Shown one piece after another: positions 3,478-38,331 of a DNA stretch of 64,000 bases. Location of the stretch: contig NZ_MCGG01000052.1 in the NCBI RefSeq assembly GCF_001746755.1, positions 52,674 through 116,673 of the forward strand, given 5' to 3'. This DNA comes from Magnetovibrio blakemorei (GTDB taxonomy: Bacteria > Pseudomonadota > Alphaproteobacteria > Rhodospirillales > Magnetovibrionaceae). The notes beneath the pieces are model-generated. The model was not told the DNA's origin, did not search any database, and saw nothing but the letters and a program-made list of their open reading frames with translations. A program made the translations under genes and the position numbers. Within the stretch, counting starts at the first letter, position 1; each line of letters opens with the position of its first letter.

Positions 3478-3842
3478 CGTATCTTGCCCCAGTTTGGTTA
3501 TTGGTTTCGTCAGCGCGCGGCCTTAAGGCCTTTTGCATCAGCCATTCTCATAGCCGTGTGAGAAGGCGGACACGTTAATCCGAGCATCGCGGTGGGGCAA
3601 GCTGAAATTGGTGCGTTGCAACATGCAAATGACGCTTATGGCACCTGTTTGACGGGACAGGTATGCGTTCAGCGCATGATAGCCATGCCCTGCCTGCGGT
3701 ACCGCAAGAGGCTCTATCCGTGTATGTAGAGCGCACATCAAAAGCAGAATCATTTTAAACAGCCGGGACGCGCGGGACCCGCTGGGGTGTTTTTTGTTTG
3801 TCGATAGCCCCTTGATCTCGTTTTTTGTGAGTGAGTGCCCGA
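3478..3842. promoter_or_regulatory. Divergent intergenic region between bioB and the SulP gene
   Basis: This non-coding stretch must hold the promoters of the leftward bio operon and the rightward transporter gene. A perfect 12-bp palindrome, GGCCTTAAGGCC, lies at 3519-3530, about 45 bp upstream of bioB, and could be an operator. I saw no BioR-type box (TTATMKATAA). A G+C-rich hairpin at 3760-3784 followed by T6 (3790-3795) lies just before the SulP start and resembles an intrinsic terminator or attenuator reading rightward. A short ORF here on the minus strand (3538-3753) shows no recognisable features. Confidence 0.45.
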
Positions 3843-5372
3843 ATGTTTGAATTCCATTACCGCAAAGCCATTTCCATGAAGGCCGATATTTTGTCCGGCC
3901 TGACCGTGGCGTTGGCGCTGGTGCCCGAAGCGGTGGCGTTCGCCTTTGTGGCCGGCGTGAACCCCCTGACGGGGTTGTACGCCGCGTTTATGGTTGGATT
4001 GATCACCGCCGCCATCGGTGGTCGTCCGGGTATGATTTCCGGGGCCACCGGGGCGTTGGCGGTGGTGATGGTGGCGTTGGTGGCCGATCACGGTGTTGAA
4101 TATTTGTTCGCCACCGTCGTGCTGATGGGCATACTCCAGGTGTTGGCGGGAGCTTTGCGGCTGGGCAAATACATCCGCATGGTGCCGCATCAGGTGATGC
4201 TGGGCTTCGTCAACGGTTTGGCGATTGTGATTTTCTTGGCGCAGTTGAAACAGTTTCAGATCGATTTACCCGGTGGTGGTTATGAGTGGCTGAGCGGCAA
4301 CGCGCTCTACATCATGCTGGCGTTGGTGGCGTTGGCGATGGCGATCATCCAGTATCTGCCCAAGTTGACCGAAGCCATTCCGGCCCCCTTGGCGGCTATT
4401 TTGGGCGTGACGGGGATTGTTTTGGCGTTGGATTTAGATGTGCGCACCGTAGGCGATATGGCGTCCATTGCCGGCGGATTGCCGGAATTTCATATCCCCA
4501 CCGTGCCTTTGACGTGGGAAACGCTGACCATCATTTTCCCCTATTCGGTGATCTTAGCCGCCGTTGGCTTGATTGAAAGCTTGCTGACCTTGACGGTGAT
4601 CGATGAAATCACCGACACCCGTGGGCGCGGCAATCGCGAATGCGTGGGCCAGGGCACGGCCAACATCGTCACCGGTTTTTTCGGCGGCATGGGCGGCTGT
4701 GCGATGATCGGTCAATCCATGATCAACGTGAATTCCGGTGGCCGCGGGCGCATGTCGGGCATTTCGGCGGCGTTGTTCTTGCTGGTCTTTATTTTGTTTG
4801 CCTCAAGTTTGATCGAAATGATTCCGTTGGCCGCCCTGGTGGGGGTGATGATGATGGTGGTGCTGGGTACGTTTGAATGGTCCAGCTTTCGCATCTTGCA
4901 CAAAATTCCCCGCTCAGATGCCTTTGTGCTGATTTTGGTGTCGGGCGTCACGGTATTTACCGATTTGGCCATCGCCGTGATTGTTGGTGTGATCGTTTCT
5001 GCGCTGGTGTATGCATGGGGCAACGCGTCGCGCATACAGGCGGTCACCAAATTGAACGCTCAAGGCGGAAAAGAGTACCAATTGCAGGGGCCGTTATTTT
5101 TTGGCTCGGTCACGTCGTTTCGTGATTTGTTTGATCCCGACAACGATCCCGACGATGTGGTGGTGGATTTCCGCTTGTCGCGGGTTGCCGATCATTCGGG
5201 CCTGGAAGCGATTGACAACTTGGCCGAACGCTACCAACGGCGGGAAAAACGCTTGCACCTGCGCCACCTCAGCCCGGAATGCCGCAAGCTTTTGCACCGG
5301 GCCAAAGACTTGGTCGAAGTCAACGTGATTGAAGACCCCCGGTACTTCGTCGCGAGCGACGAGTTGGCGTAG
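3843..5372 (+). CDS. SulP-family inorganic anion transporter with STAS domain
   Basis: Inner-membrane anion transporter of the SLC26/SulP family; substrates across the family include sulfate and bicarbonate and cannot be set from sequence. The 509-residue protein has the SulP signature region [17 protein letters not shown] near residues 45-61, roughly a dozen hydrophobic segments up to residue 400, and a C-terminal STAS-like domain from about 415 ([14 protein letters not shown]). I prefer ATG at 3843; a GTG four codons upstream (3831) is in frame. The gene is monocistronic, preceded by a terminator-like hairpin and followed by a bidirectional terminator. Sulfur genes elsewhere in the window make a sulfate role plausible, but this is inference. 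Confidence 0.85.
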
Positions 5373-9096: not shown

Positions 9097-10663
9097 CCTG
9101 CGTGTAGAGCCCCGTCAAAGCGCGACGGAGAACCTTGCCCGTTGGCGTGTGGGGCAAAGCCTCAACCATCACAAAATCTTTGGGCACCTTGTACGCCGCC
9201 AAACGCTCAGAAGCATAGGTTGTCAGCTCTTCGGTTGTTGGGTGTGCGGATGGCTTGGCGACGATGAACGCAACGATGATGGAGAGGTCTTCGCGCACTT
9301 GAATTTCCCCGCAGGCACATTCTTGCACGCCGGGGTGATGGACCAGTACGTCTTCGATGTCTTGCGGCGACACCCGATAACCTTGGGCGTTCATCAAATC
9401 GTCTGCACGCCCCAAGTATTGCAGATAGCCCTCATCATCGAGCAAGGCCAAATCTCCGGTGAGGAACCAGTCTTGACGAAATGCCGCGACGGTTTCTGAG
9501 TCCCTGTTCCAATAGCGCATCATCAAGCCGGGGTCGTCTTTGTGCAAAGCCAACAGTCCCGGTTCGCCGACGGGCATGGTTTCCACCGAACCGTCTTCAG
9601 GGTTGAGGATGGCCACCCGTCGCCCGATTTGCGGACGTCCGGTAAAGCCCGGTTTGATGGGCACGGAGGGCGATGAAGAGGCATAGGTTGAACATTCGCT
9701 CATCCCAAGGGCTTCGAACAGGGGCTTTTTGGTGGCCTTGATCCAATGGTCTCTGACGGCTTCAGAGAGTTTTTCACCTGCCGTCAGACCGTGGCGCAAA
9801 TGTGCGAAGCCTTGGGATATATGATCGGCGTATTTGAGCATTTGGCGGTACACGCTGGGTACGGCCGCAAACAACGTGGCGGAATGCTTGGCCGCCAACT
9901 TGGGCCACACGCCAGGGGCTTTGGGACCATTGTAAATCACCGTCGAGGCCCCAACCGCCCAGGGGTCCATCAAGCCTGCGCCTAAGGTGTATGTCCAGTT
10001 GAACGCCCCGGCATGGAGCATGCGATCCGTTTCACCAAGTCCGTACCAGCCATCATACATCATGCGCCGCGCCCACACCGCGCGGTGGGCATGCAGGACG
10101 CCCTTGGGGCTCGCCGTGGCGCCAGACGTGTAGACGATGTAAGCCGGATCATCGCCATGGGTATGGGCGTAATCGACGGTGTCTTCACAAGTCATTAAAT
10201 CGCGGATGTCGTCATCCAACAGCTGGGTGCAGTGTTCGGGAATGTCGTCGATTTTTAAATCCGTCGACGCGCACAAAAACCGCGCGCCGCAGTCTTCCAA
10301 GATAAAATGAGCTTCGCGGGCCGACAGCTGTGATGAAGTCGGCACCGCAATGCCACCGGCCGCCAAGGTGGCGAAAAATATCAGCGGAAAGGTGCTTTCG
10401 TTGCCCAGGCGCAGCATCACCCGTTCGCCGGGTTTTAAGCCCATGTGAAACAACCCAGCGGCAATGCGCGTGACCGCGTCGTCCAGTTGAGCGAAGCTCC
10501 ACTGCTCTGCGGGTTCTAAGGTCTCGGGGTTGCTCACCACAATCAGCGCGGTCTTGTCGGGATGGGCTTGGGCAGAGGTCTCTAAGCAATACGCCGCCGC
10601 ATTGAAATGCGTCGGGCAGGGCGTCGGTGCGCCTTGATCAAACAGGCTGGTGGTGAGTTTCAT
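9083..10663 (-). CDS. AMP-forming acyl-CoA synthetase/ligase
   Basis: ANL-superfamily enzyme that activates a carboxylic acid as acyl-AMP and then transfers it, usually to CoA. The 526-residue protein has the phosphate-binding loop YTSGATASPKGV near residues 168-179, GMSECSTYAS, the hinge region GRADDLMNAQGYRVSP, and the C-terminal catalytic lysine in PTGKVLRRAL. The layout resembles benzoate- or medium-chain acyl-CoA ligases, but the substrate is unknown. It lies 10 bp after the nucleotide-sugar dehydrogenase gene and is probably co-transcribed with it. Confidence 0.87.
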   Translation of the reverse strand: MKLTTSLFDQGAPTPCPTHFNAAAYCLETSAQAHPDKTALIVVSNPETLEPAEQWSFAQLDDAVTRIAAGLFHMGLKPGERVMLRLGNESTFPLIFFATLAAGGIAVPTSSQLSAREAHFILEDCGARFLCASTDLKIDDIPEHCTQLLDDDIRDLMTCEDTVDYAHTHGDDPAYIVYTSGATASPKGVLHAHRAVWARRMMYDGWYGLGETDRMLHAGAFNWTYTLGAGLMDPWAVGASTVIYNGPKAPGVWPKLAAKHSATLFAAVPSVYRQMLKYADHISQGFAHLRHGLTAGEKLSEAVRDHWIKATKKPLFEALGMSECSTYASSSPSVPIKPGFTGRPQIGRRVAILNPEDGSVETMPVGEPGLLALHKDDPGLMMRYWNRDSETVAAFRQDWFLTGDLALLDDEGYLQYLGRADDLMNAQGYRVSPQDIEDVLVHHPGVQECACGEIQVREDLSIIVAFIVAKPSAHPTTEELTTYASERLAAYKVPKDFVMVEALPHTPTGKVLRRALTGLYTQVKPT

Positions 10664-10673
10664 CGCCGCTGAG

Positions 10674-11951
10674 CTAAAGTCGCCATAGGGTTATGCCATC
10701 GGGCATGGCGTTACGATCTAACACGCTGCGCACATCGATCACCACACCTTTGCCGCCTGTCAGTAGGCTTTGCACAAAGTCCCAGCCACCTTTGACATAA
10801 GATGCATGCGGCACGGCGAGGATCACCGCGTCGGCAAGCCCGAGCTTGTTCATCGGCGTGAGGTCAATGCCGTATTCATGCTGGGCCTCGCTGGGCAGGG
10901 CCATGGGGTCATGGACTTTGACGTTCATGGCGTAAGCCGTCAGCTCTTCAATGACGTCGATGACTTTGGTGTTGCGCAAGTCCGGAACGTCTTCTTTGAA
11001 CGTCAGGCCGAGCACCGTAATGTTACGACCGCCACCGTTTTGCAGCATCAGCTTGACGGTGTGCTGGGCGATAAATGCACCCATGGAATCGTTGGTTTTG
11101 CGACCCGCCAAAATCACTTGAGGGTGCAGACCAGCCTGTTCGGCGCGGTATGTCAGGTAGTAGGGGTCAACACCGATGCAATGCCCGCCCACCAAACCCG
11201 GTGAGAATTTCAAGAAATTCCACTTGGTTCCGGCGGCCTCCAAAACGTCCTTGGTGTCGATGCCGAGGCGATCAAAAATCTGCGCCAATTCGTTCATCAA
11301 TGCGATGTTGAGATCGCGTTGGGTGTTTTCAATCACCTTCGCGGCCTCAGCGGTTTTGATGCTGGGGGCTTTATGAACACCGGCCTTAACGACGGAACCA
11401 TAGACGGCGGCCACCGTTTGCAAGGTGGCCTCGTCTTGGCCGGAGACCACTTTGGTGATGGTTTCAAAACGATGCTCTTTATCGCCCGGGTTGATCCGTT
11501 CGGGGGAATAACCAACGGTGAAATCCGGACCGCATTTCAGGCCGGACAGTTTTTCCAACACCGGCACGCAGACTTCTTCGGTGGCACCGGGATAGACGGT
11601 GCTTTCATAGACGACAATGTCGCCTTTTTTGAGGTGCGCACCCAACGTGGTTGACGCTGAAACCAGGGGCCGCAAGTCGGGCTTGTTGGCGTCGTCAACG
11701 GGCGTCGGCACGGTGATGATGTGAAAATCGGCCTGGCTTAAATCGGCGGCATTGGTGGTGAGCAAGAGGTCCACTGCAGCCAAATCTGCATCTTCGACTT
11801 CGCCGGTGATGTCGTGCCCGGCTTTGAGGCCGTCAATGCGCGCTTGTGAAATGTCGAGACCGACGGTGAAGCCCTGTTTGGCAAACGCCACGGCCACCGG
11901 AAGGCCGACATAGCCCAGCCCAATTACGGAAATGCGGCGGTTATGGCTCAC
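10674..11951 (-). CDS. Nucleotide-sugar dehydrogenase (UDP-GlcNAc/GalNAc-type, TviB/WbpA-like)
   Basis: NAD-dependent four-electron oxidation of a UDP-sugar to a uronic acid for surface polysaccharide synthesis. The 425-residue protein has the Rossmann motif VIGLGYVGLPVA near residues 9-20, VPTPVDDANKPDL, YESTVYPGATEE, and the catalytic cysteine in GGHCIGVDPYYL near 255. The VPTPVD and YESTVYPG motifs favour the TviB/WbpA group over UDP-glucose dehydrogenase. No glycosyltransferases or epimerases are adjacent, so the final polysaccharide is unknown. It heads a two-gene unit with the acyl-CoA ligase. Confidence 0.88.
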   Translation of the reverse strand: MSHNRRISVIGLGYVGLPVAVAFAKQGFTVGLDISQARIDGLKAGHDITGEVEDADLAAVDLLLTTNAADLSQADFHIITVPTPVDDANKPDLRPLVSASTTLGAHLKKGDIVVYESTVYPGATEEVCVPVLEKLSGLKCGPDFTVGYSPERINPGDKEHRFETITKVVSGQDEATLQTVAAVYGSVVKAGVHKAPSIKTAEAAKVIENTQRDLNIALMNELAQIFDRLGIDTKDVLEAAGTKWNFLKFSPGLVGGHCIGVDPYYLTYRAEQAGLHPQVILAGRKTNDSMGAFIAQHTVKLMLQNGGGRNITVLGLTFKEDVPDLRNTKVIDVIEELTAYAMNVKVHDPMALPSEAQHEYGIDLTPMNKLGLADAVILAVPHASYVKGGWDFVQSLLTGGKGVVIDVRSVLDRNAMPDGITLWRL

Positions 11952-12086
11952 AATGATACTCCCTTAGCGCGGTACCTCTTCTTGCACACGTCTACTGGCG
12001 CACATCTAGAGGCATTGCCTTGTCTAAACGCAAGGCCCACAGGGTGCAACACCTTATGCATATATTTTGCGGATGAAAACGGTGAA

Positions 12087-13013
12087 TTATTGGCAGTCAC
12101 CGGGCGTTTCGGGCATTTTCACACCCCAAAAGGTAGCGTCAAAATCGGCTTCTAAGGGCAATCCGCCTAAAAAATCGATGCCGCTGCGCGTTTGGATGGT
12201 TTTGAGCGTGCTCACCGACTCGACCCAGGTGTTGCGTTTGCCGTAATCATTCCAGCGAAACAAAGACGCCAGCACTTTGTAAGGCTGCCCTTCTTCTGGT
12301 GCGGCCACGATGATTTTGTAAAAGCACGTCGGCACGATGGGGGCGTTGGGAGCGGTCCCAATCGTCGGGCCTTCGGTGACGTTTTTGGTCTCTGGATCGT
12401 CTTTATTGGTGCCAAAAACGCCGGAATAAATCCACATGGGCACGTTTTTCGCGGCGACGTAGGTGCGAAACGCATCTTCTTCGCCCAGCCAGGTCCCGGC
12501 GTTGAAGGTCTGCTTTTGCGGCACCACGTTGGAAAAATGGAAGGTTGTGTCGTAGGCGGCTTTGCTCCAGCTCATGTCATTGGCGGGTACGATGTGTCCG
12601 CGGGCATAGCCCGACCGGACGTAATTTTTGTCGATGGCTTGAAGATCGGCTTTGATGGCCTCATCTGGGGTGAATTTTGGTCGCTTCAGCACGCCCGAAT
12701 TGGCTTTGATTTGCGCCATCAGGTCGGGCGTCAACTTGTGCACGGTCCAGGTGGGGATTTTGCGCGCCGTGTCATAGCGGATGGCGAACAGGGGCTGTCC
12801 ATCGGCCAGTTTGCACAAATCTTGGATGGTTTGTGATTTGGCCTTGGGTACGGTGTTGCCCGGAAATTGGTCCTGACACGCGGCGAAGGGGGCAGGGACG
12901 GGGGGAGCGGCGTTCTCCGGCCCCAAAACCCGTTCACCACCAAAAGCCTGATGGTTCAAGGCCATGGCGCTCATACAAACGCATATATATGCCATCAAGG
13001 TGGTGCGTCTCAT
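12087..13013 (-). CDS. Secreted DNA/RNA non-specific endonuclease
   Basis: Member of the Serratia nuclease / EndoG family of His-Me-finger nucleases. The 308-residue protein starts with a signal peptide (hydrophobic residues about 5-20, cleavage near AFG). The active-site motif reads YARGHIVPANDMSW near residues 141-154; R-G-H is intact but the usual first Asp of DRGH is Ala. The metal-binding region FSNVVPQKQTFNAGTW follows as expected. It likely acts in the periplasm or outside the cell, scavenging nucleic acid. It is monocistronic, divergent from rsmI. Confidence 0.85.
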   Translation of the reverse strand: MRRTTLMAYICVCMSAMALNHQAFGGERVLGPENAAPPVPAPFAACQDQFPGNTVPKAKSQTIQDLCKLADGQPLFAIRYDTARKIPTWTVHKLTPDLMAQIKANSGVLKRPKFTPDEAIKADLQAIDKNYVRSGYARGHIVPANDMSWSKAAYDTTFHFSNVVPQKQTFNAGTWLGEEDAFRTYVAAKNVPMWIYSGVFGTNKDDPETKNVTEGPTIGTAPNAPIVPTCFYKIIVAAPEEGQPYKVLASLFRWNDYGKRNTWVESVSTLKTIQTRSGIDFLGGLPLEADFDATFWGVKMPETPGDCQ

Positions 13014-13176
13014 GGGCGTGTATCCCTATACGTGCAACCACGAATCTATGCAAATTTTACGTGTATTGAGGAGGAATGCAATAAAAAGCTGTTATATGAA
13101 TTTAATGCAATCTGGTATCGGGTGGGGGGAAGGTGCTATCAAGAGGGCGACCACCTCTTGTCGAAAAGGCACGCCC

Positions 13177-14043
13177 ATGGCGCAAAAACGCCCCAGCCGA
13201 GGTTCGCGCGATTCCCGTGCCTCTCAACACCGCTCTTCTGGGCGCGATGCTTATCGGGGAAAGCCCGGAGGTAAGCCCGGTTTGGCCCCGGTACCCAAGC
13301 CGCTTGCCGAACCCAAGGGGCTGCTGGAGGCGGGGCTTTACGTCATCGCCACGCCCATCGGCAATTTGGGCGACATCACGTTTCGCGCCGTGGAAACGCT
13401 GAAGGCCTTGGACGCTTTGGGCTGTGAAGACACCCGCGTCAGTTCCAAATTGCTCAGTCATTTGGGCATCGAAAAGCCACACCCGACATTTTCATGCCAC
13501 GAACACAATGAAGATCGTACCGTGAGCCGTATCCGCAGCTTGATTGACGAAGGTCGCGCGGTGGGCTTGATCTCCGACGCAGGCTTGCCGGGGATTTCCG
13601 ATCCCGGCTATCGGGTGATCAGTACCTTGTTGGACGAAGGCGTAAAGGTCGAAGTTCTGCCCGGCGCCAATGCCGCGACCATGGCGCTGGTGGCCAGCGG
13701 TTTGCCCACCTCCAGTTTCACCTTCTTAGGCTTTGCGTCGCGCAAGTCGGGCAAGCGCAAAAAGATGTTGGAAGCGGAGCGCGATGCGGAACACACCCTT
13801 ATTGTTTATGAAAGCCCACACCGCATCGGCGCTTTTTTGGCGGATGCTTTAGAGGTGTTGGGCGACCGCAAGGCGGTGGTGGCGCTGGAACTGACCAAGA
13901 TGTTTGAACGCTATCATCGCGGCCCGCTGTCGCAGTTGGTCAAGGAGTTTGCAGAAGACAAACCCAAGGGCGAAATCACCGTGTTGATCGAAGGCGTCAG
14001 CCGTAAATCCAAACGCGACGAGGACGACGGGGACGACGATTGA
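13177..14043 (+). CDS. rsmI: 16S rRNA (cytidine1402-2'-O)-methyltransferase
   Basis: SAM-dependent tetrapyrrole-methylase-fold enzyme that 2'-O-methylates C1402 in the decoding centre. The 288-residue protein has YVIATPIGNLGDITFRA near residues 50-66, CEDTR, SDAGLPGISDPG, and the C-terminal KGEITVLIEG. I take ATG at 13177, preceded by AAAAGG, rather than the longer frame from 12964, because the basic, poorly conserved N-terminus already provides about 45 extra residues before the domain. The acidic tail DEDDGDDD ends one base into the next gene. Confidence 0.93.
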   Translation: MAQKRPSRGSRDSRASQHRSSGRDAYRGKPGGKPGLAPVPKPLAEPKGLLEAGLYVIATPIGNLGDITFRAVETLKALDALGCEDTRVSSKLLSHLGIEKPHPTFSCHEHNEDRTVSRIRSLIDEGRAVGLISDAGLPGISDPGYRVISTLLDEGVKVEVLPGANAATMALVASGLPTSSFTFLGFASRKSGKRKKMLEAERDAEHTLIVYESPHRIGAFLADALEVLGDRKAVVALELTKMFERYHRGPLSQLVKEFAEDKPKGEITVLIEGVSRKSKRDEDDGDDD

Positions 14044-18975: not shown

Positions 18976-19731
18976 GTGAAACAAATTTGGAAAGAGGCCA
19001 GGACTCCAAAGATGGACCAGCGTACATATTCGACCAGAAGCTTGCATGGACAGGTGGTACATGAGCTGGGTAAGCGCATCGTCACCGGTGACATCAGTGA
19101 AGGAGAAATTCTGCCCAATGAAACCCAGTTGGGGGCTTCGTTTGATGTCAGTCGGACGGCCCTGCGTGAAGGCATTAAGGTCCTGACCGCAAAAGGTCTG
19201 TTGGTCAGCCGTACTCGTACCGGCACACGCGTGCGCCCACGCAATGAATGGAATATGCTGGACCCGGATATCTTGGCCTGGCGGTTGGAGTCGGGCGAGC
19301 CCGAACAGTACATCCAGGATTTGGTGGAGTTTCGCCAAGCGGTTGAGCCGTTGGCGGCGTCCTTGGCGGCAAAACGCGCCAGCGAGAAGCTTATTCAAGA
19401 TATCCAGCAGGCCTTTGATGATATGGTCGAAGCGGGCGCGGACGTAGAAGCCAGCGTCGCACCGACGTTGCGCTTTCATCAGGGGATTTTACATGCCAGC
19501 GGCAATGAGCTGTTGGCTCCACTGGGGGCTTTGGTTGAAGCCGCACTGACGATGAGCTTCCGTCTTGCCGAACCGTCCTCAAAGTTGGAAGAAATCAAGC
19601 TCCACGCCGACATCTTGGATGCAATCAAGGTTCATGATTCGCGTGCAGCTTGGAAAGCCATGTTTACGCTTTTGGATCGCACCTTCGAATATAATCTGGC
19701 GGCGATTACGAAGATGCAAAAGGGTACTTAA
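18976..19731 (+). CDS. GntR-family transcriptional regulator, FadR/FCD subfamily
   Basis: One-component DNA-binding regulator of 251 residues. The N-terminal winged helix includes EGEILPNETQLGASFDVSRTAL near residues 40-60 and the wing GLLVSRTRTGTRVRPR. The C-terminal FCD ligand domain (about 95-240) contains the expected metal-binding pattern, with FHQGILHASGN and a later LHADILDAI. Subfamily members mostly respond to sugar acids or carboxylates. GTG at 18976 follows GAGGGG at suitable spacing; an ATG 12 codons downstream is the alternative. No metabolic operon is adjacent, so the ligand is unknown. Confidence 0.9.
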   Translation: MKQIWKEARTPKMDQRTYSTRSLHGQVVHELGKRIVTGDISEGEILPNETQLGASFDVSRTALREGIKVLTAKGLLVSRTRTGTRVRPRNEWNMLDPDILAWRLESGEPEQYIQDLVEFRQAVEPLAASLAAKRASEKLIQDIQQAFDDMVEAGADVEASVAPTLRFHQGILHASGNELLAPLGALVEAALTMSFRLAEPSSKLEEIKLHADILDAIKVHDSRAAWKAMFTLLDRTFEYNLAAITKMQKGT

Positions 19732-19766
19732 TTCAGGCGCTTTCATTCTTTGCACTCATCCTTGAC

Positions 19767-19800
19767 CGGACAGGTTCTGCCTTCATGTAGGACCTGTCCG
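19767..19800. other. Stem-loop downstream of the GntR gene
   Basis: CGGACAGGT (19767-19775) and ACCTGTCCG (19792-19800) form a perfect 9-bp stem. No T-run follows, so it is a weak terminator at best and may be an mRNA 3' stabiliser. Confidence 0.5.
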
Positions 19801-19964
19801 CTTGGATGGCTGCACCATCGGCTCAAAAGGGAAGGTGCGGGGGTGCCACAAGTGCTTCGTCTTGTTTGCGGCTGTTTCATTTGTTGCAATGGGTGACTTG
19901 GAAAGATTATGATCTGAGGATATGAGGTGGGGCGTACATATCTTAAACCAAAGCGACACTGTTG

Positions 19965-20861
19965 ATGAACTTCGAAGAGATCATTGCCCGCCTTGAGAGC
20001 GCCTTTGCGCACTTGAGCCCCCAACTTAAGCATGCGGCGCGGTACGTTATCGATAATCCAGATGATGTGGCGCTGTATTCCATGCGTCAATTGGCCGCCC
20101 ATGCGGACGTGCACCCGTCAACGATGGTGCGTTTGGCGCGGGAGATGGGCTTTGAGGGGCATGCTCAATTTCAAGAACCTTTTCAGGTGCGCCTGCGCTC
20201 TAAGCCTAAGGTCAGCTATGTCGGGGGAGCCCGTGAGTTGCAGGCGCGGGGCGGCAATGGCAATACCGCTTCGCTGATTTCTGAAATGTTTGACATGGAA
20301 TGCACGGCGTTCCAAGCCCTGCATCAACAAGATAACCTCGACGATATCATAAAGGCGTCTGAGATTTTGTGTGGCGCGCGCAATATCTTTGCCGTGGGTG
20401 CGCGTTCCATGTACCCGGTGGCTTTTTATTTTCACTATGCGTGTCGAATGTTCACCAACAACGTCCATTTGGTCGGTGGTCATGGCGGCACTTTTGCAGA
20501 TCAACTGCGGGGCGTGGGGAAGGGTGACGTGGTTCTTGCCACCAGCTTTTCACCCTACAGCCGCAACACCGTGCGTGCTGTTGATTATGCGCTCGAACAC
20601 GGTGCCCAAGTGGTTGCGGTGACCGACAGTTCGGTTTCGCCCATTGCCCGTCAGAAAGAAACGATGACAATTTTGGTAAGCAACGAAAGTCCGTCTCTGT
20701 TTCATTCCATCGTTCCCGCCATGGCGGTGATTGAAGCCTTGGTGATGTTGATGATTGCGCGCGGCGGGGCAAAGGCTTTGACGGCGCTGGAGCACAGTGA
20801 AGAACAATTGAACGGTTTTGATGCTTACTGGCTTGATAAAGTAACGCGGGTTCGACGGTGA
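19965..20861 (+). CDS. MurR/RpiR-family transcriptional regulator
   Basis: Regulator of 298 residues with an N-terminal HTH (YSMRQLAAHADVHPSTMVRL near 48-67, then GFEGHAQFQ) and a C-terminal SIS domain (about 125-265) containing IFAVGARSMYPVA and DVVLATSFSPYSRNT. SIS domains bind phosphosugars in most relatives. ATG at 19965 is chosen; a TTG precedes it by one codon. Only 14 bases separate it from the TAXI binding-protein gene, suggesting co-transcription. Confidence 0.9.
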   Translation: MNFEEIIARLESAFAHLSPQLKHAARYVIDNPDDVALYSMRQLAAHADVHPSTMVRLAREMGFEGHAQFQEPFQVRLRSKPKVSYVGGARELQARGGNGNTASLISEMFDMECTAFQALHQQDNLDDIIKASEILCGARNIFAVGARSMYPVAFYFHYACRMFTNNVHLVGGHGGTFADQLRGVGKGDVVLATSFSPYSRNTVRAVDYALEHGAQVVAVTDSSVSPIARQKETMTILVSNESPSLFHSIVPAMAVIEALVMLMIARGGAKALTALEHSEEQLNGFDAYWLDKVTRVRR

Positions 20862-20875
20862 GGAACAGGACTTTG

Positions 20876-21901
20876 ATGACCAGATTTTTTTGTCTTTCGC
20901 GAAAAACGTTGAAACGCGCTTTTGGATTTTATGTTCTGGTATCTGCGTTGGCGGCGGCGCTGGCATTGGGTTTGGGCACAAGCGTTTGGGCACAAGAAGA
21001 AACCCATTTTGTTTCCATCGGTAGCGGTGGGGCGACAGGCGTCTATTATCCCGCAGGCGGCGCAATATGTCGGTTGGTCAACAAAGGTCGACGTACCCAC
21101 GGCATTCGCTGTTCGGTCGAAAGCACAATGGGGTCGGCTTACAATATAGATGCTCTGCGCAAAGGTGATTTGGATTTTGCCATTGCCCAATCGGACGTTC
21201 AGTTTGCCGCGGTAAACGGACTTCTGCCTTTTGAAGCGTATGGTCCTTTTACGGACCTCAGATTGGTTTTTAGTCTGCATGCCGAAGCCTTTTCGGTGTT
21301 GGCGCGTGCCGATGCGGGGGTTCGGGCCTTTGACGATCTCAAGGGAAAGCGGGTCAATATCGGCAATCCCGGTTCCGGTCAACGGGTGACCTTGGACAGG
21401 TTGATGAAAGTGAAAGGCTGGACCAACAGTGACTTTTCCAAGGTTATGGAATTGACCTCTTCGGAACAGTCAAAGGCCCTGTGTGACAATCAAATCGACG
21501 CCATCGTGTTTATGGTTGGCCATCCCAACGCCTCGATCAAAGAAGCTGCGACGTCTTGTAATGTGGTGTTGGTGAATGTGACGGGTAAGGATGTGCAAAA
21601 CCTGATCGACAGTTCACCTTATTTTAGGCTCGCAAATATTCCCGGCCAAATGTATACGGGCTCAGAGTCAAAAGTGCAGACTTTCGAAGTTGGCGCAACC
21701 TTGGTGACCACGGCCAAAACGCCCAATTTAGTCGTCTATGAAATGGTTAAGGCGGTGTTTGAACACATTGACGACCTCCGTCATATGCACGCAGCGCTGG
21801 AACATCTTGATGTGACGCAAATGGCCCACCCGGAACTCTCGGCAGCCCCGTTGCATCCCGGTGCATTGAAGTACTTCAAGGAAGTGGGCTTGGTGGATTA
21901 A
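20876..21901 (+). CDS. TAXI-family TRAP transporter solute-binding protein
   Basis: Periplasmic binding protein of 341 residues. The signal peptide covers about residues 15-40 (cleavage near VWAQ). The mature part has the family pattern IGSGGATGVYYPAGGAICRL, DLDFAIAQSDVQ, the ligand loop GNPGSGQRVT, and DAIVFMVGHPN. TAXI proteins deliver carboxylates such as glutamate to TRAP permeases. No DctQ/DctM or fused permease lies nearby, so it is an orphan here. The ATG at 20876 is preferred over a GTG overlapping the rpiR stop. Confidence 0.9.
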   Translation: MTRFFCLSRKTLKRAFGFYVLVSALAAALALGLGTSVWAQEETHFVSIGSGGATGVYYPAGGAICRLVNKGRRTHGIRCSVESTMGSAYNIDALRKGDLDFAIAQSDVQFAAVNGLLPFEAYGPFTDLRLVFSLHAEAFSVLARADAGVRAFDDLKGKRVNIGNPGSGQRVTLDRLMKVKGWTNSDFSKVMELTSSEQSKALCDNQIDAIVFMVGHPNASIKEAATSCNVVLVNVTGKDVQNLIDSSPYFRLANIPGQMYTGSESKVQTFEVGATLVTTAKTPNLVVYEMVKAVFEHIDDLRHMHAALEHLDVTQMAHPELSAAPLHPGALKYFKEVGLVD

Positions 21902-21912
21902 GAGTCCTGCCC

Positions 21913-22860
21913 CTAAACCTTGGTCGCACCGTAATAAAGGTTCACCGTGTGTTTGGCTTCAGCGAAAAACAACCAGCGCTCAACAATGATGCCAAGCGAG
22001 CACAGCCCCCACGCCAGCACAACAGCCGCCAATGCGGCGTAACCGTCGATGAACATTGCCAACGCGGAAAACACCAACGGTAAAGCAAACCCGGTCACGT
22101 GTGAAATGGTGCGCAATTTGTCGGCATGCTTTTGCGCGACCTTGTAGCCCATTTCCTTCATCAGATAGTTATCCGATGTGTGCGGCAGTTCCAAAACGCT
22201 GACATCACCGGCGGCATCGATGCCGATGGCGGAATTCACTGTCGGCAGTCCGCTTGAGCGTTTGTTGAAGCCCCAATACAAAGTCTTCAATCCCCAACCC
22301 AAAGCCAGGGTGACTACGGTGAGGCCTTGGATATACGGGTTCTCAGCGCCGAACAGGTGGACCAAAACACTCATCAAAACGGCACCGCTCATGATCGACA
22401 ACAACAGATATGACGGCACCGTCCAATCGTTGTGCCACTGATGGATGGGGCGCAGAGAATGATAAATTTTCGCCGTGCAGATCACCGTCAGCCATGCCAA
22501 GATCGCCGACACCACACCGGCAACCGCCCACAGACCAGTGGTGTCTTCAAACCACACCCAGCCCAGGCCGAACAGCGCAGCGGGGATGTACGTCAACACC
22601 GCCATTACGCCTTCACGCGCCAGCCAAGAGGAACGCCATTGGGTCATGGCACGCCAAGCGCGTTCCGGGCGGCCCAAGTGAAAGGTCGAGGCCAACAAGC
22701 CGACCGTGACCAAGGTGAGGGCGAACAGCAGACCGGACAAGCCCATCCAACGTTCGCTCGGCAACATGCCGGCTGCGCCCCAAATGCCCATCATCGCCAG
22801 CAAGCCGTAGCCGGCGCCTGAACAGGTGGTGAAAAAGATAACCGAAAAAGCAGGATGCAT
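21913..22860 (-). CDS. soeC: Sulfite dehydrogenase membrane anchor subunit (DmsC-like)
   Basis: Integral membrane quinone-interacting subunit of 315 residues with about eight hydrophobic helices and a DmsC-type N-terminus (FSVIFFTTCSGAGYGL). It would pass electrons from the iron-sulfur subunit to the quinone pool. It lies 17 bases after soeB in the order A-B-C. DmsC-type anchors occur in both DMSO reductases and SoeABC; the Soe assignment rests on the whole operon. It converges on the TAXI gene with an 11-base gap. Confidence 0.78.
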   Translation of the reverse strand: MHPAFSVIFFTTCSGAGYGLLAMMGIWGAAGMLPSERWMGLSGLLFALTLVTVGLLASTFHLGRPERAWRAMTQWRSSWLAREGVMAVLTYIPAALFGLGWVWFEDTTGLWAVAGVVSAILAWLTVICTAKIYHSLRPIHQWHNDWTVPSYLLLSIMSGAVLMSVLVHLFGAENPYIQGLTVVTLALGWGLKTLYWGFNKRSSGLPTVNSAIGIDAAGDVSVLELPHTSDNYLMKEMGYKVAQKHADKLRTISHVTGFALPLVFSALAMFIDGYAALAAVVLAWGLCSLGIIVERWLFFAEAKHTVNLYYGATKV

Positions 22861-22877
22861 TTCTGTCGTCCCCCCCC

Positions 22878-23615
22878 TTATTTCGAAAGGACTTTGTCAA
22901 GCCAGCCCAAGAAGCCATCAGCTTCAAACGGTTCCAGCTCTTCGGGCGCGCCAATATCGGCGCTGTCAATTTTGCGCGCGCGGGGCGGCAAATACTTATT
23001 GGTGGGTTTGTAGCCCAGTTCTGGCATCAAGTCGCGGCCATGGCGGGCAGCCGTCAACTGCGAAACTTTGGATTCCGGATCGTTCAAGTCGCCGAAGTGA
23101 CGCGCGCTGGTGGGACAGGCGAGAACGCAGGCCGGTTGACGATCTTCGGGATCTAAGTTTTCATTGTAGATGCGATCAATGCACAAGGTGCATTTTTTCA
23201 TCACGCCTTCATCAGCGTCAAATTCGCGCGCACCATAGGGGCAAGCCCAACTGCACAACTTGCAGCCGATGCATTTGTCGGTGTTGACCAACACGATGCC
23301 GTCTTCGGATCGTTTGTACGATGCCCCCGTTGGGCACACGGTGACGCATTCGGCGTTGTCGCAGTGCAGGCACGAGCGGGGGAAGTTGATGGTCAAATTG
23401 GGGCGGTCGCCGCGTTTGACTTCAAACGAATGGACCCGGTTAAACCACACCCCATCGGGCTGCGGACCATACGGGTCGTAGTCAGTGAGCGGAGCGGAAT
23501 GTCCGCCGGAGTTCCAGGATTTACAGTTGGTGGCGCAGGCGTGACAGCCGACGCAGGTGTCCAAATCGATCACCAGGCCCAACTTTTTATTGGTATGACT
23601 TGGCAGAGAGGTCAT
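22878..23615 (-). CDS. soeB: Sulfite dehydrogenase iron-sulfur subunit (four [4Fe-4S])
   Basis: Electron-transfer subunit of 245 residues with four cysteine clusters: CVGCHACATNC near residue 20, CLHCDNAECVTVCP, CIGCKLCSWACPYG, and CTLCIDR...CVLACP. It resembles DmsB/PsrB/SoeB proteins. It has no signal sequence, in keeping with a cytoplasmic location. Only two bases separate it from the end of soeA. Confidence 0.82.
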   Translation of the reverse strand: MTSLPSHTNKKLGLVIDLDTCVGCHACATNCKSWNSGGHSAPLTDYDPYGPQPDGVWFNRVHSFEVKRGDRPNLTINFPRSCLHCDNAECVTVCPTGASYKRSEDGIVLVNTDKCIGCKLCSWACPYGAREFDADEGVMKKCTLCIDRIYNENLDPEDRQPACVLACPTSARHFGDLNDPESKVSQLTAARHGRDLMPELGYKPTNKYLPPRARKIDSADIGAPEELEPFEADGFLGWLDKVLSK

Positions 23616-23617
23616 GC

Positions 23618-26536
23618 TTATTTGCCCTCCCGTTTGGCGCGGAAATCTTTGCCATAGCGCAAAGTTTTGGGCGTCTCGGCCATGTTGTCGAACTTTTCGA
23701 CCACCGGGAATTGCGGCCAGCTTTCGCCAAACTGGCTGGGCTCCGCCTTTTCAATTTTAACCCGAAGATCAAACCAAGCGGCTTGTCCGGTGATGGGGTC
23801 GGAATTGGAATAGCGGTACCCGTCGCCTTGAACCGGAAGCAGTTCGGAAATCAAATGGTTCAACAAGAAGCCTTCTTTGGCTTCAATGGCGTCCTTGTCC
23901 AGGTTCCACGCCCCGCGACGTTTGCCGATGGCGTTCCATGTCCAAATCGTGTTTGGGTTGACGCCGTCCACCAGTTTGACTTGGCAGCGGATGCGTGCAT
24001 GGTGGCTCGATACCCAGATCCAATCGTCATCGACGAGCCCCAACTTGGCCCCCAAGTCATTGTGAATGAACATACGGTTCTTGCCGGTGATTTGGCGCAG
24101 CCATGCATTTTGTGAACCCCATGAATGATACATATGCATGGGCCGTTGGGTCAGGGCATGGAGCGGATATTCTTTGGTGTCGACGATGGTTTCTTCGAAC
24201 GGTTGATACCAAATCGGCAGGGGATCAAAATATTTCAAAATGCGTTCGGCATCGGCTTTCGGCGGAGTGGTGTCGCCATGGCCTTCGGCGGCCAAACGGA
24301 ACTTTTGAAACACTTCGGAATACATCTGAAAAATGATCGGTTCGTTGTTGGGCAGCAGGCCCATGTCGGCGCACCAATCGAGATAGTTTTTATTGGCCAT
24401 CTTGAAATAGCGTTGATCGCGGGCGAATTCGTGTTTCCAGAAACTCTGGTTTTCGATGTACTTGTTCAACTGGTTGGGGTTGACTTCACCCTTCATCGGT
24501 TTGTCGCCGTTGACACCACGCCACCCGCCCAGCATGCCGACGCCCGGCGCGCGTTCGTGGTTGACCATGTAATCGGCCAAGCCGCCTGGATACTTGGCAG
24601 AGCCATCGTCGTTGGTCAGACCCGGCAGGCCCAAACGGTGACCCAAATCGATCAGCACGCTTTGGAAGCCGCGCACATCGCGGTCCGGTTCCACCACCGG
24701 ATAACGGATCGCGTCGGCGCACGCATCGGCGTTGGAAATGGGGCGATCCAAAAGCGAAATACAGTCGTGACGTTCCAGGTAGGTGGTGTCGGGCAAAATC
24801 AAATCGGCGTACTGCACCATTTCGGAAAAATAGGCATCCGCGTAAATGATGTAGGGGATTTTGTAGCTGCCATCGGCTTCTTTGTCGGTCAGCATTTCGA
24901 TGGTGCCAGCGGTGTTCATGGATGAGTTCCAGCTCATGTTGGCCATGAACATCATCAAGGTGTCGATCTTGTACGGATCGCCTTTCCACGCGTTGTGGAT
25001 GACCATGTGCATCATGCCATGGCTGGAAATTGGGTGCTCCCAACTGTAGGCTTTGTCGATGCGCCGGGGCGTGAAGCCGTCGTCTTCCAACAACAAATCT
25101 TCCGGTCCGGTGGGAAAGCCCAGAGGCGCGCCCGGAAGCGGGGTGTTGGGGTGCACTTGATCAGACCTTCCGGTGGGCTTGATGCCCGGCGGAATGTGTT
25201 TGGGGTAAGGCGCTTTGATGCGAAATCCGCCCGGCACTTCGACCGAGCCCAGCAAGATTTGCAAGATGTGCAGCATACGACAGGTGTGAAAGCCGTTGGA
25301 GTGCGCAGAGATACCGCGCATGGCATGGAACGACACCGGACGGCCGATCATTTTGTCGTGAACCTTGCCGGTCCAGTCGGTCCATTCCTGGTCGATTTCG
25401 ATGGTTTCTTTAAAGGCCACGTGGGCCAATTCCGCGGCGATGCGCTTAATGTCTGCCACCTTCAGGCCGCACACGTGGGCGACTTGTTCGGGGGCGTACT
25501 GGGCGTCCAGGTAGCGCCGGGCCAGAATTTCAAAACTGGGAACCGCTGTGCGTCCATCAGCAAGGGTGAATTTGCCCTTGAGTGCGGGGGTGGCAATTTT
25601 GCCCGACTTGGCGTTGGCCAGGGCTTGGGCGTCTTGATCCCAGCACAGCGGGTTGCCTTCAGCGTCGCGGGCGAACAGGCCGTTATCAGATGCACCTTTG
25701 TCGTCAATCACCAGCCAGGCGGCGTTGGTGTAGCGGATCAGATATTCAACATCGACGTTGCCCGATTTCAGCAACTCGTGCACCAAAGCCATGATGAACA
25801 AACCGTCGGTGCCGGGGCGGATGCCGACCCATTCGTCGGCGATGGCCCCGTATCCGGTGCGCACCGGGTTGACTGCGACGAACTTTGCGCCGCGCTTCTT
25901 CAGCAACCCCAGACCTTTTTTGATCGGGTTGGAATCGTGATCTTCAGCGACCCCAAACATCATGAAATATTTGGACAGGTGCCAGTCGGGTTCGGCGAAT
26001 TCCCAGAACGCGCCGCCGATGGTGTAGAGGCCACCCGCGGCCATGTTCACTGAACAAAAGCCCCCGTGGGCGGCGTAGTTGGGGGTGCCGAATTGGCTGG
26101 CCCACCACCCGGTCAAGGCCTGGGATTGATCGCGCCCGGTGAAAAAGGCGAGCTTCTTGGGATCGGTGTTGCGGATGTGACCCAAACGATCGGACGCCAG
26201 CTGCAACGCTTCGTCCCATTCAATTTCGACAAATTCGTTCGAACCGCGCTCGCCGACGCGCTTCATCGGTTTGGACAAGCGGGCCGGGGAATAGTGCTGC
26301 ATGATGCCGCTTGAACCCTTGCCGCACAGAACCCCGCCGTTGACGGGGTGATTGCGGTTGCCTTGGATGTAGCGCACCTTGCCGTCATGCAAATAAACCT
26401 TAATGCCGCAACGGCACGCGCACATATAGCACGTGGTGTACTTCACCTCTTCGCCCAGCGTCGGAGACAAATCGACGTTGTCATCAGCGGCGTGGGGATC
26501 GGCCATTTTGGTGGACGGCTTATTCACTTCGTTCAT
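23618..26536 (-). CDS. soeA: Molybdopterin oxidoreductase, probable sulfite dehydrogenase catalytic subunit
   Basis: The 972-residue bis-MGD enzyme of the DMSO-reductase family carries an N-terminal [4Fe-4S] motif, CYMCACRC followed by LCGKG. The likely molybdenum-ligand Cys is in GGFCSVNMAAG near residue 170. There is no Tat signal peptide, unlike DmsA, PsrA or PhsA, and this favours SoeA, whose active site faces the cytoplasm. Length also fits SoeA as I recall it. The predicted reaction is sulfite to sulfate with electrons to quinone. ATG at 26536 has GGAGA upstream; a TTG seven codons earlier adds only an Arg-rich stretch. Other respiratory Mo-enzymes of this clade cannot be fully excluded. 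Confidence 0.8.
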   Translation of the reverse strand: MNEVNKPSTKMADPHAADDNVDLSPTLGEEVKYTTCYMCACRCGIKVYLHDGKVRYIQGNRNHPVNGGVLCGKGSSGIMQHYSPARLSKPMKRVGERGSNEFVEIEWDEALQLASDRLGHIRNTDPKKLAFFTGRDQSQALTGWWASQFGTPNYAAHGGFCSVNMAAGGLYTIGGAFWEFAEPDWHLSKYFMMFGVAEDHDSNPIKKGLGLLKKRGAKFVAVNPVRTGYGAIADEWVGIRPGTDGLFIMALVHELLKSGNVDVEYLIRYTNAAWLVIDDKGASDNGLFARDAEGNPLCWDQDAQALANAKSGKIATPALKGKFTLADGRTAVPSFEILARRYLDAQYAPEQVAHVCGLKVADIKRIAAELAHVAFKETIEIDQEWTDWTGKVHDKMIGRPVSFHAMRGISAHSNGFHTCRMLHILQILLGSVEVPGGFRIKAPYPKHIPPGIKPTGRSDQVHPNTPLPGAPLGFPTGPEDLLLEDDGFTPRRIDKAYSWEHPISSHGMMHMVIHNAWKGDPYKIDTLMMFMANMSWNSSMNTAGTIEMLTDKEADGSYKIPYIIYADAYFSEMVQYADLILPDTTYLERHDCISLLDRPISNADACADAIRYPVVEPDRDVRGFQSVLIDLGHRLGLPGLTNDDGSAKYPGGLADYMVNHERAPGVGMLGGWRGVNGDKPMKGEVNPNQLNKYIENQSFWKHEFARDQRYFKMANKNYLDWCADMGLLPNNEPIIFQMYSEVFQKFRLAAEGHGDTTPPKADAERILKYFDPLPIWYQPFEETIVDTKEYPLHALTQRPMHMYHSWGSQNAWLRQITGKNRMFIHNDLGAKLGLVDDDWIWVSSHHARIRCQVKLVDGVNPNTIWTWNAIGKRRGAWNLDKDAIEAKEGFLLNHLISELLPVQGDGYRYSNSDPITGQAAWFDLRVKIEKAEPSQFGESWPQFPVVEKFDNMAETPKTLRYGKDFRAKREGK

Positions 26537-27054: not shown

Positions 27055-27120
27055 TCGATCCTGACGCTAGACGTTGAGCTTTTTCACCTGTGCAGTGTCC
27101 TTTGAGGATACCAATATCAA

Positions 27121-27176
27121 TTCACCAATTCACCAATTCACCAACTCACCAATTCACCAACTCACCAACTCACCAA
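27121..27176. repeat. Seven tandem 8-bp repeats (YTCACCAA)
   Basis: Seven head-to-tail octamers, four TTCACCAA and three CTCACCAA, run from 27121 to 27176 and end six bases before the stop codon of the leftward gene. They are non-coding. The unit length and lack of spacers rule out CRISPR; replication slippage is the likely origin. Confidence 0.95.
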
Positions 27177-27182
27177 TGTGAT

Positions 27183-36877: not shown

Positions 36878-37546
36878 ATGGTCAATTTTTATCAAGATCA
36901 GGAATTTATTAACGACAACTTGTGCATATATCGCCGCCCAGGTGCTAAGAACGGCAGGTGGCAGTATCGGGCGTACGTTGGCGGCAAGTATTATATCAAG
37001 TCGACTAAAGTGACGGATCGCCGCAAAGCTTATGATGCCGCTGAACGTGCTTACAAGGATCTGGTTCGACGCCACCGCGCGGGGCATACTCTGGACCGAG
37101 TGTTGTTTCGTCATCAGGCTGACAAATGGATTGAGGTGCTTGAGGCTGAGAAAATTAGTCGAAAGCGAACCGCGATCCTTTCGCCTCTCCAGCTTTACTT
37201 GAAGCCATATTTTGGGGACATGGACGTTCGTGAAATCGGTGAGGATCAGATTGACGACTATAAAGATAATCGTCGTACTGAATTTTCCCCGGCACCATCT
37301 GTTAGCACGGTCAATACTGAACTCTGGGTATTGCGCTTGTTTTTTAAGCGTCTGCCCAAAAACATCATGGAAGCGAAAGAAAAGCCTCTTATCGCGAATA
37401 TTTCACTAGAAAAGCCCCCGGAAGGATTCAAGGAGCAAAGCGATAGGCGACCATTTACTAGGGACGAACTTGCCGATATTCGCCGCGAGTTAACGTGGAA
37501 ACAGATCACTGTTGTTAAAACGCCACTCACATTCCTTCAAAAATAG
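36878..37546 (+). pseudogene. Truncated phage-type tyrosine integrase
   Basis: The 222-residue ORF contains an AP2-like arm-binding N-terminus (GRWQYRAYVGGKYYIKSTK) and a SAM-like core-binding domain (about 70-175), and reaches the start of the catalytic domain (RRPFTRDELADIRREL). The catalytic R-H-R-Y residues are missing. The last dozen residues derive from antisense IS sequence. It lies about 140 bp from the distal att repeat. Non-functional as an integrase. Confidence 0.85.
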
Positions 37547-38116
37547 GCCGAAATGGGCTTTTGGAACACCGTTGAATTTACGCATGTGGCGCTTGGCCTG
37601 GTTCCAAAAATTCTCAATCCCGTTGATGTGGTTTTGTTTGTCTGCAAAGAGTTCGGAGTGGTTGATCCGAAAGTGGTGAAAATCCGATACGTCCAACACA
37701 TTATAACCACGCCAACAGTCCGAATATACGATGCTATCAGGAACAACTTTGCGTTCTATGATTGGCAACAAGGTCGCTGAACTGGCATCGGGAATCGTTT
37801 TTGTGTAGACCCTACCGCCGCGCTTCAGCAGGCCAAATACAGGGATTTTACCGGCGGCCCCACGTCCACGCTTACCCTTCCGCTTGCCGCCGAAATAGCT
37901 TTCATCCACTTCGACCTCGCCGCCGAACATTGCCTCGCTCTCTGCCTCCAGTTCAACGGCGATGATCTCGCGCAGGCGCAGAAAATAGAAGGCGGCTGTC
38001 TTGCGGTTCACACCGCACAGGCTCGCCGCAGTCCGGGCCGTCGTGCCCGCGACAAAATGCTCAATCAAGCGATCTTGTTTATACCTGCTAAGTCGACTCT
38101 TGCGCATGCTTCCCAT
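37490..38116 (-). pseudogene. IS1595-family (ISXO2-like) transposase, probably 3'-truncated
   Basis: DDE transposase of 208 residues with an N-terminal HTH (ARTAASLCGVNRKTAAFYFL), the catalytic region GEVEVDESYFGGKRKGKRG, YSDCWRGY, and a final catalytic-domain segment HINGIENFWNQAKRHMRKFNG. The family C-terminus should continue past ECEWRFNN, but here the frame runs into antisense integrase sequence and stops after DLFPR. The end therefore seems lost with the IS left end. Confidence 0.75.

Positions 38117-38255: not shown

Positions 38256-38331
<76 letters not shown>

Follow-up and report, generated by a model that had tools for sequence, protein, structure and literature searches.

Which reaction is carried out by the membrane-anchored molybdoenzyme that Magnetovibrio blakemorei MV-1 encodes in a compact three-gene operon? 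The operon lies in a 64,000-nucleotide stretch of contig NZ_MCGG01000052.1 (assembly GCF_001746755.1, positions 52,674 to 116,673 of the forward strand), hereafter the window, to which coordinates refer unless another locus is named. A first-pass annotation made from the letters of this DNA had matched the operon to the cytoplasmic sulfite-oxidising enzyme SoeABC rather than to dimethyl sulfoxide (DMSO), polysulfide or thiosulfate reductases, and had taken this to mean that the cell finishes sulfur oxidation in the cytoplasm. We compared the three genes with related loci in other genomes and searched the M. blakemorei genome (3,638,804 bases in 91 contigs, the window being on contig C52) for further genes of sulfur oxidation. 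With a probability of roughly 0.9 the operon is predicted to encode a SoeABC-type sulfite:quinone oxidoreductase, an unremarkable representative of a known enzyme family.

Operon architecture

The genes soeA, soeB and soeC (Table 1) are all on the minus strand and span 21913-26536 with spacings of 2 and 17 bp. The soeA start was placed at the ATG at 26536; an alternative TTG seven codons upstream would give a 979-aa form. SoeA matched the Pfam models Molybdopterin, Molybdop_Fe4S4 and Molydop_binding. SoeB matched 4Fe-4S dicluster models; its cysteines number exactly 16 and fall into four groups, the pattern of a four-cluster subunit. The product of the third gene matched the DmsC family (PF04976) at 80 bits, identifying a DmsC-type anchor. 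The open reading frames, Pfam matches and cysteine count bear out the A-B-C order, four-cluster ferredoxin subunit and DmsC-type anchor described in the first-pass annotation.

Gene order was compared across 174 SoeA loci (155 distinct sequences; Mesorhizobium accounts for 50 of the 80 named loci), 77 of which were too short for order to be judged. The A-B-C order was kept in 96 of the 97 loci with enough downstream DNA, and because it recurs in this way the arrangement is not due to chance. The single exception (L085, 8001-10832 and downstream) has SoeA and SoeB, and BLAST gave no SoeC there.

Table 1. Coordinates of the soeABC genes and of the SoeA cofactor sites in the window (ORF, open reading frame; Tat, twin-arginine translocation).
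Feature	Position	Strand	Description and basis
soeA	23618..26536	-	972-aa molybdopterin catalytic subunit, no Tat signal; ORF, Pfam, SoeA clade
soeB	22878..23615	-	245-aa ferredoxin-like subunit, 16 Cys in four groups; ORF, Pfam
soeC	21913..22860	-	315-aa DmsC/NrfD-type membrane anchor, 8 predicted helices; ORF, Pfam
Proximal 4Fe-4S site, C-x2-C-x3-C-x27-C (CYMCACRC...C)	26324..26431	-	soeA codons 36-71
Cys161 codon of SoeA, predicted molybdenum ligand (GGFCSVN)	26054..26056	-	Alignment and motif conservation

Cofactor sites and missing Tat signal of SoeA

The four cysteines of the SoeA iron-sulfur site were invariant in a 31-row alignment. Together with the Pfam and fold matches, the CxxCxxxC...C motif identified a catalytic subunit of the molybdenum-bis(pyranopterin guanine dinucleotide) (Mo-bisPGD) type with one N-terminal 4Fe-4S site. 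Cys161 aligned with a cysteine of the Psr/Phs-type enzyme 2vpw, which we take to be the molybdenum ligand of that enzyme. Its surrounding motif reads GGFCSVN in 172 of the 174 loci and GGFCSAN in the remaining 2, so that GGFCS(V/A)N was present in 174/174.

The 35 residues ahead of the iron-sulfur site contain neither an RR motif nor a hydrophobic stretch. Both were seen in each of four Tat-bearing controls (E. coli DmsA, two PhsA and one outgroup enzyme), and the best 15-residue Kyte-Doolittle mean was -0.45 for the SoeA N-terminus versus 1.42-1.67 for the controls. Motif and hydropathy therefore agree with the earlier description of an A subunit without a twin-arginine signal and with an N-terminal CxxCxxxC site. 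The RR-x-F/L-[LIV] motif was found in none of the 173 scorable loci (of 174). The looser RR-x-F/L pattern used for the controls occurred in 1 of these 173, L048, without a hydrophobic stretch; the SoeA of L168 has a hydrophobic stretch but no RR.

Phylogeny of SoeA

A careful 26-row tree combined 16 SoeA rows, selected from the window and the 174 loci, with 10 outgroup rows: E. coli DmsA, three PhsA, one Tat-bearing enzyme and five paralogues from the M. blakemorei genome. The 16 SoeA rows grouped together with 100/100 support, separate from E. coli DmsA, PhsA, Nap, Nas and Fdh, and a quick 46-row tree agreed on this clade. The three true PhsA formed their own 100/100 group with the window SoeA outside it. 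This placement, apart from E. coli DmsA and all three PhsA, favors the proposed match to SoeABC over a DMSO or thiosulfate reductase. The tree contains no full PsrA and no TtrA; PsrA was compared by PDB alignment and fold, and TtrA by model score.

Among the five paralogues, NapA and two FdhA scored over their model cut-offs, an FdnG-like and a NasA-like protein fell below, and none of the five was over the DmsA cut-off. The nearest outgroup was the Tat-bearing enzyme, an 886-aa molybdoenzyme (L208, 2005-4665; G287 C1) with 27% identity to SoeA over nearly its full length and no NCBIfam model over cut-off among its matches to E 1e-50.

The nearest named relatives of the window SoeA include Magnetovibrio metagenome-assembled genomes (MAGs) at 89% identity. 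Within the family, 15 of 18 genomes have SoeA, as do 10/10 of the good-quality ones. Varunaivibrio sulfuroxidans TC8 (G017), of the same family, has a complete soeABC (L184, C1:1365001-1385000, at 8873-13521) with 71/75/72% identity to the window in A/B/C, and its soeABC neighbours differ from those in the window (EamA-like and nar-like by sequence appearance). A further soeABC operon (L183, 7176-11833; C1) is present in G023, a genome that we take to be probably Magnetococcus marinus MC-1. Marine cocci such as MC-1 have been contrasted with freshwater cocci having the adenosine 5'-phosphosulfate route (PMC6783814; this and the papers cited below, except PMC5122692, are cited for the parts of their text that were available). 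SoeABC may fill the sulfite step in the marine cocci.

Charge inversion of the SoeC anchor

Hydropathy was evaluated for 97 SoeC (96 loci and the window) and for 6 DmsC/YnfH, SoeC and DmsC both belonging to PF04976. Eight helices were predicted in every one of them, also when the number of helices was left uncapped. Lysines plus arginines (K+R) on the N-terminal side numbered 18 in the window SoeC, with 1 on the other side. Across all SoeC the means were 19.5 (15-22) on the N-terminal side versus 1.1 (0-3) on the other, the N-terminal side being larger in 97/97. The DmsC means were 4.8 (3-7) versus 9.8 (8-12), with the N-terminal side larger in 0/6. The contrast stayed when the long loop between helices 6 and 7 was left out (about 9.3 versus 1.0 in SoeC and about 3.3 versus 9.9 in DmsC).

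Because the K+R-rich sides are opposite, the positive-inside rule predicts a cytoplasmic N-terminus for SoeC and a periplasmic N-terminus for DmsC. The reversed charge, which is independent of the missing Tat signal, supports a predicted cytoplasmic face for SoeAB. A good case can be made that SoeC is a DmsC-family anchor that was flipped upside down in the membrane during evolution, with the same helices and opposite sidedness. A review of NrfD proteins expected an inversion of SoeC since SoeAB were predicted to be cytoplasmic, and in the available part of its main text the terms 'positively charged' and 'inside rule' are absent (PMC8076601).

Gene neighbourhoods of relatives point to sulfite

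Sulfite as the substrate is suggested by the neighbourhoods of related operons. Xsc releases sulfite, and its gene recurs near soeA. On Azospirillum plasmids (L200, L201) soeABC is clustered with the acylating sulfoacetaldehyde dehydrogenase SauS (810 bits in L200, cut-off 600), a CoA-ligase-like pair, a tripartite transporter, a phosphate-acetyltransferase-type gene and xsc. In Nioella (L069), whose SoeA is 66% identical to that of the window, the genes run xsc, pta, a gene for a PF03601 membrane protein, soeA, soeB and soeC. An xsc gene also lies near soeA in a Hyphomicrobiaceae MAG (L080) and in G249 (L195); L147 was dropped from the xsc loci as a partial match (179 aa, 44%). Ruegeria pomeroyi DSS-3 has the same subunits in an arrangement similar to that of Nioella, with SPO3557-3559 annotated as soeCBA and adjoining pta (SPO3560) (PMC4334477). 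Unlike the R. pomeroyi genes, the M. blakemorei operon has neither xsc nor pta among the neighbours examined in the window, and it sits in a genome with Dsr and without an Xsc over cut-off.

Sulfur-oxidation genes in the M. blakemorei genome

In line with the first-pass annotation, the genome holds other genes of sulfur oxidation, with soxB (865 bits), dsrA (561) and aprA (1066) each over the curated cut-off. The sox set consists of a soxX-like gene, soxY, soxZ, soxA and soxB. The dsr set consists of dsrA, B, E, F, H, C and K and a DsrL-like gene, with DsrF 5 bits under its cut-off and dsrM assigned by position only; dsrEFH and dsrL are marks of the oxidative type (PMC6783814). The aprB gene was over cut-off and stands with aprA and with a gene that occupies the aprM position and encodes a 290-aa membrane protein without a Pfam match. 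The Sox-Dsr-Soe pathway of cultured sulfur oxidisers comprises soxXYZAB without soxCD, dsrABEFHCMKJOP and soeABC, and among 82 cultured Beta- and Gammaproteobacteria every dsr-positive sulfur oxidiser also had soeABC (PMC6397845). The predicted gene set of M. blakemorei suits this pattern as far as tested (dsrJOP and soxD were not looked for).

A SoxC-sized PF00174 protein was not found in the genome, where the only PF00174 matches were of 324 aa and 242 aa. Both were considered as a second periplasmic sulfite oxidase and rejected, the 324-aa protein being MsrP-like with an MsrQ-like neighbour, by sequence appearance only, and the other only 242 aa long without a visible signal. The 242-aa protein (L139, 4629-5357; G000 C7) is possibly a cytoplasmic enzyme of the sulfite-oxidase fold. 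Next to sox in MV-1 are genes for a TauE/SafE exporter and a TIGR02186-like partner (L138, 15198-16881; G000 C27). Relatives of the two lie at a distance of 2-8 kb from soeA, of the first in 54 loci and of the second in 55, 49 of each being from Mesorhizobium, and the pair is also near soeABC in Nisaea, Pelagibius and MAGs (loci such as L015, L018, L039, L054 and L078).

Points against the assignment

Several observations weigh against SoeABC as a sulfite oxidoreductase of lithotrophic sulfur oxidation. Sulfite oxidation by the M. blakemorei enzyme is a predicted activity. What links the clade to function is gene neighbourhood together with the published annotation of a relative's operon, the tree having been built without the SoeA of Allochromatium vinosum or Aquifex. 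Both trees have very long outgroup rows, and some of the long branches meet, which leaves the order among the outgroups uncertain. The structure model of SoeA was of middling confidence (predicted local distance difference test score 67.5). By fold it was closest to PcrA (a perchlorate reductase, Z 25.0), nitrite oxidoreductase and NarG, all of them ahead of 2vpw (Z 21.6, root-mean-square deviation 3.4, 569 aligned residues); the modelled fold is of the Mo-bisPGD type and singles out no subtype. Among the neighbours examined, no sox, dsr or xsc gene was found beside the operon. AprBA is present, and SoeABC therefore need not be the main route.

The distribution of SoeA and DsrA was assessed in 398 Pseudomonadota genomes, with at most two candidates per genome scored for SoeA and at most four for DsrA. 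SoeA matches split cleanly in two: 50 genomes with at least 50% identity across the protein's full length or most of it, and a partial remainder at 29-36%; G184 and G307 (partial, 29-33% identity) were dropped from the 52 matches. All but one of the 53 DsrA matches were over the curated cut-off. SoeA and DsrA were found together in 11 genomes, SoeA only in 39, DsrA only in 42 and neither in 306. This association is at most weak (Fisher p=0.07), and it too counts against the assignment, as do the 42 of 53 dsrA-positive genomes without a SoeA match. Many of the dsrA-positive, SoeA-negative genomes fall in a few families (f43, f48, f37). The PhsA family search gave 2 of the 398 genomes at E 1e-100. 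Because the SoeA-DsrA association is weak, SoeABC probably serves more than lithotrophs. For the same reason SoeA alone does not imply lithotrophy, and the role in MV-1 rests on the accompanying dsr and sox genes.

Alternative explanations

One alternative is that sulfite is oxidised mainly by AprBA with ATP sulfurylase, SoeABC being present but auxiliary. The high aprA score, the aprB match and the adjoining membrane protein gene in the aprM position speak for it, and the V. sulfuroxidans genome paper assigns the step to AprAB and SAT (PMC10305379). A. vinosum has both routes, however, and its aprAB mutants oxidised sulfite at near wild-type rates (PMC3368242). We consider a merely auxiliary SoeABC unlikely, but a possibility to be taken seriously. 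By the title of a 2013 paper by Dahl, SoeABC is reportedly a major player in A. vinosum sulfite oxidation.

SoeABC could instead have as its main task the disposal of sulfite from organosulfonates or cysteine, and not of sulfite from lithotrophic sulfur oxidation. Several alphaproteobacterial SoeABC relatives sit with xsc and sulfonate genes, as described above, most SoeA-positive genomes (39/50) had no dsrA match, and a TAXI-type solute-binding protein gene and two regulator genes adjoin the operon. Against these stand the oxidative-type dsr set and soxXYZAB in the genome and the lack of an Xsc over cut-off there (best match 275 versus 676 bits; all 14 control genomes also match below cut-off); CuyA, SuyAB, SsuD and TauD were not searched. 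An Xsc-fed role in M. blakemorei was rejected on the Xsc result, and the wider sulfonate or cysteine role seems rather improbable.

Much less credible is that the operon makes a DMSO reductase working as a terminal reductase, a reading implied by the MV-1 genome announcement, which lists such an enzyme (PMC5122692). The subunit plan is that of E. coli DmsABC, with three subunits and an anchor of the DmsC family. However, the DmsA/YnfE model scored the window SoeA at only 126 bits versus a cut-off of 778, E. coli DmsA itself scoring 1441. DmsA carries serine at the molybdenum-ligand position, where SoeA has cysteine. DmsA has a Tat signal and SoeA has none, the anchor charge bias is opposite, and the two proteins fall in separate clades; DmsABC was rejected on model score, Tat signal and clade.

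It is similarly hard to sustain that the enzyme is a Psr/Phs-type reductase of polysulfide or thiosulfate whose Tat signal was lost. PhsA was the best NCBIfam model for the window SoeA at 219 bits, no SoeA model being among its NCBIfam matches, 2vpw was the best PDB sequence match (124 bits), and Cys161 aligns with the 2vpw cysteine. Yet the PhsA cut-off is 694 bits and the three true PhsA group apart at 100/100. Both PhsA controls that were tested carry Tat signals, whereas the SoeA clade is without them and has members beside sulfite-releasing genes. PhsABC was rejected on the model score, the missing Tat signal and the position outside the PhsA group. For TtrABC, the TtrA model scored the window SoeA at 98 bits versus a cut-off of 1750.

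Proposed mechanism and closest known systems

For substrate, reaction direction, quinone coupling and physiological sulfite source we infer the following scheme for SoeABC. SoeA, with Mo-bisPGD and one 4Fe-4S cluster, would oxidise sulfite to sulfate in the cytoplasm, and electrons would pass from SoeA through the four SoeB clusters to a quinone held by SoeC. With SoeC inserted the opposite way up from its homologue DmsC, SoeAB would dock on the cytoplasmic face of the membrane. Sulfite would most likely come from reverse-acting DsrAB, fed by sulfane sulfur left by Sox without SoxCD, and AprBA is probably a parallel route for DsrAB-derived sulfite.

The SoeABC of A. vinosum and Aquifex aeolicus are alike in having A-B-C subunits, the same cofactors, peripheral subunits described as cytoplasmic and an NrfD-type anchor (PMC8076601, PMC6397845), and the A. 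vinosum genome has Dsr and AprBA, as does that of M. blakemorei. A. vinosum belongs to a different class and Aquifex to a different phylum, and they were compared by description, not by sequence.

The proposal that sulfur oxidation is finished in the cytoplasm holds for SoeABC taken together with an oxidative-type Dsr. It does not follow from SoeABC alone, because 39 of the 50 SoeA-positive genomes lack a dsrA match and AprBA is a second cytoplasmic candidate.

Other features of the window

The genes converging on soeC (18976-21901) encode a GntR/FCD regulator, an RpiR-SIS regulator and the TAXI-type solute-binding protein; among the compared loci, their relatives lie close to soe in 5, 4 and 6, respectively. 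A tandem array of the 8-bp unit CAATTCAC (27118-27177; 7.5 copies, 92% matches) lies between soeA and a DUF6134 gene. A SulP-type sulfate permease with a STAS domain is encoded at 3831-5372, about 16.5 kb away from soeC, and an IS1595-type transposase with an ISXO2-like DDE domain at 37490-38116, close to a tRNA at 38259-38331.

Implications

These results likely correct two published pathway descriptions. Genes for 'dimethyl sulfoxide' and 'sulfite' reductases are named in the announcement of the MV-1 genome (PMC5122692). Since no paralogue was over the DmsA cut-off and soeABC was the only candidate found in a search that did not extend to other DMSO reductase types, the DMSO reductase annotation may stem from soeABC. 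For V. sulfuroxidans, the genome paper ascribes sulfite oxidation to AprAB and SAT, and its available main text contains none of the terms 'soeA', 'molybdopterin' and 'sulfite dehydrogenase', the supplement not being covered (PMC10305379). A literature search gave nothing pairing Magnetovibrio with 'sulfite dehydrogenase', and soeABC occurred with Magnetovibrio only inside a reference title.

If the inversion of SoeC is true, SoeABC would reduce quinone from the cytoplasmic face, and any ion path inherited from NrfD-like subunits would be lost, electrically silent or opposite in direction. The reversed charge pattern is also a simple sequence test that could tell cytoplasmic oxidising complexes from periplasmic DMSO reductases. 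For M. blakemorei, a magnetotactic lithotroph available in culture, the predicted SoeABC fills a gap in the sulfur pathway, in which an oxidative-type Dsr would make cytoplasmic sulfite and SoeABC could finish its oxidation.

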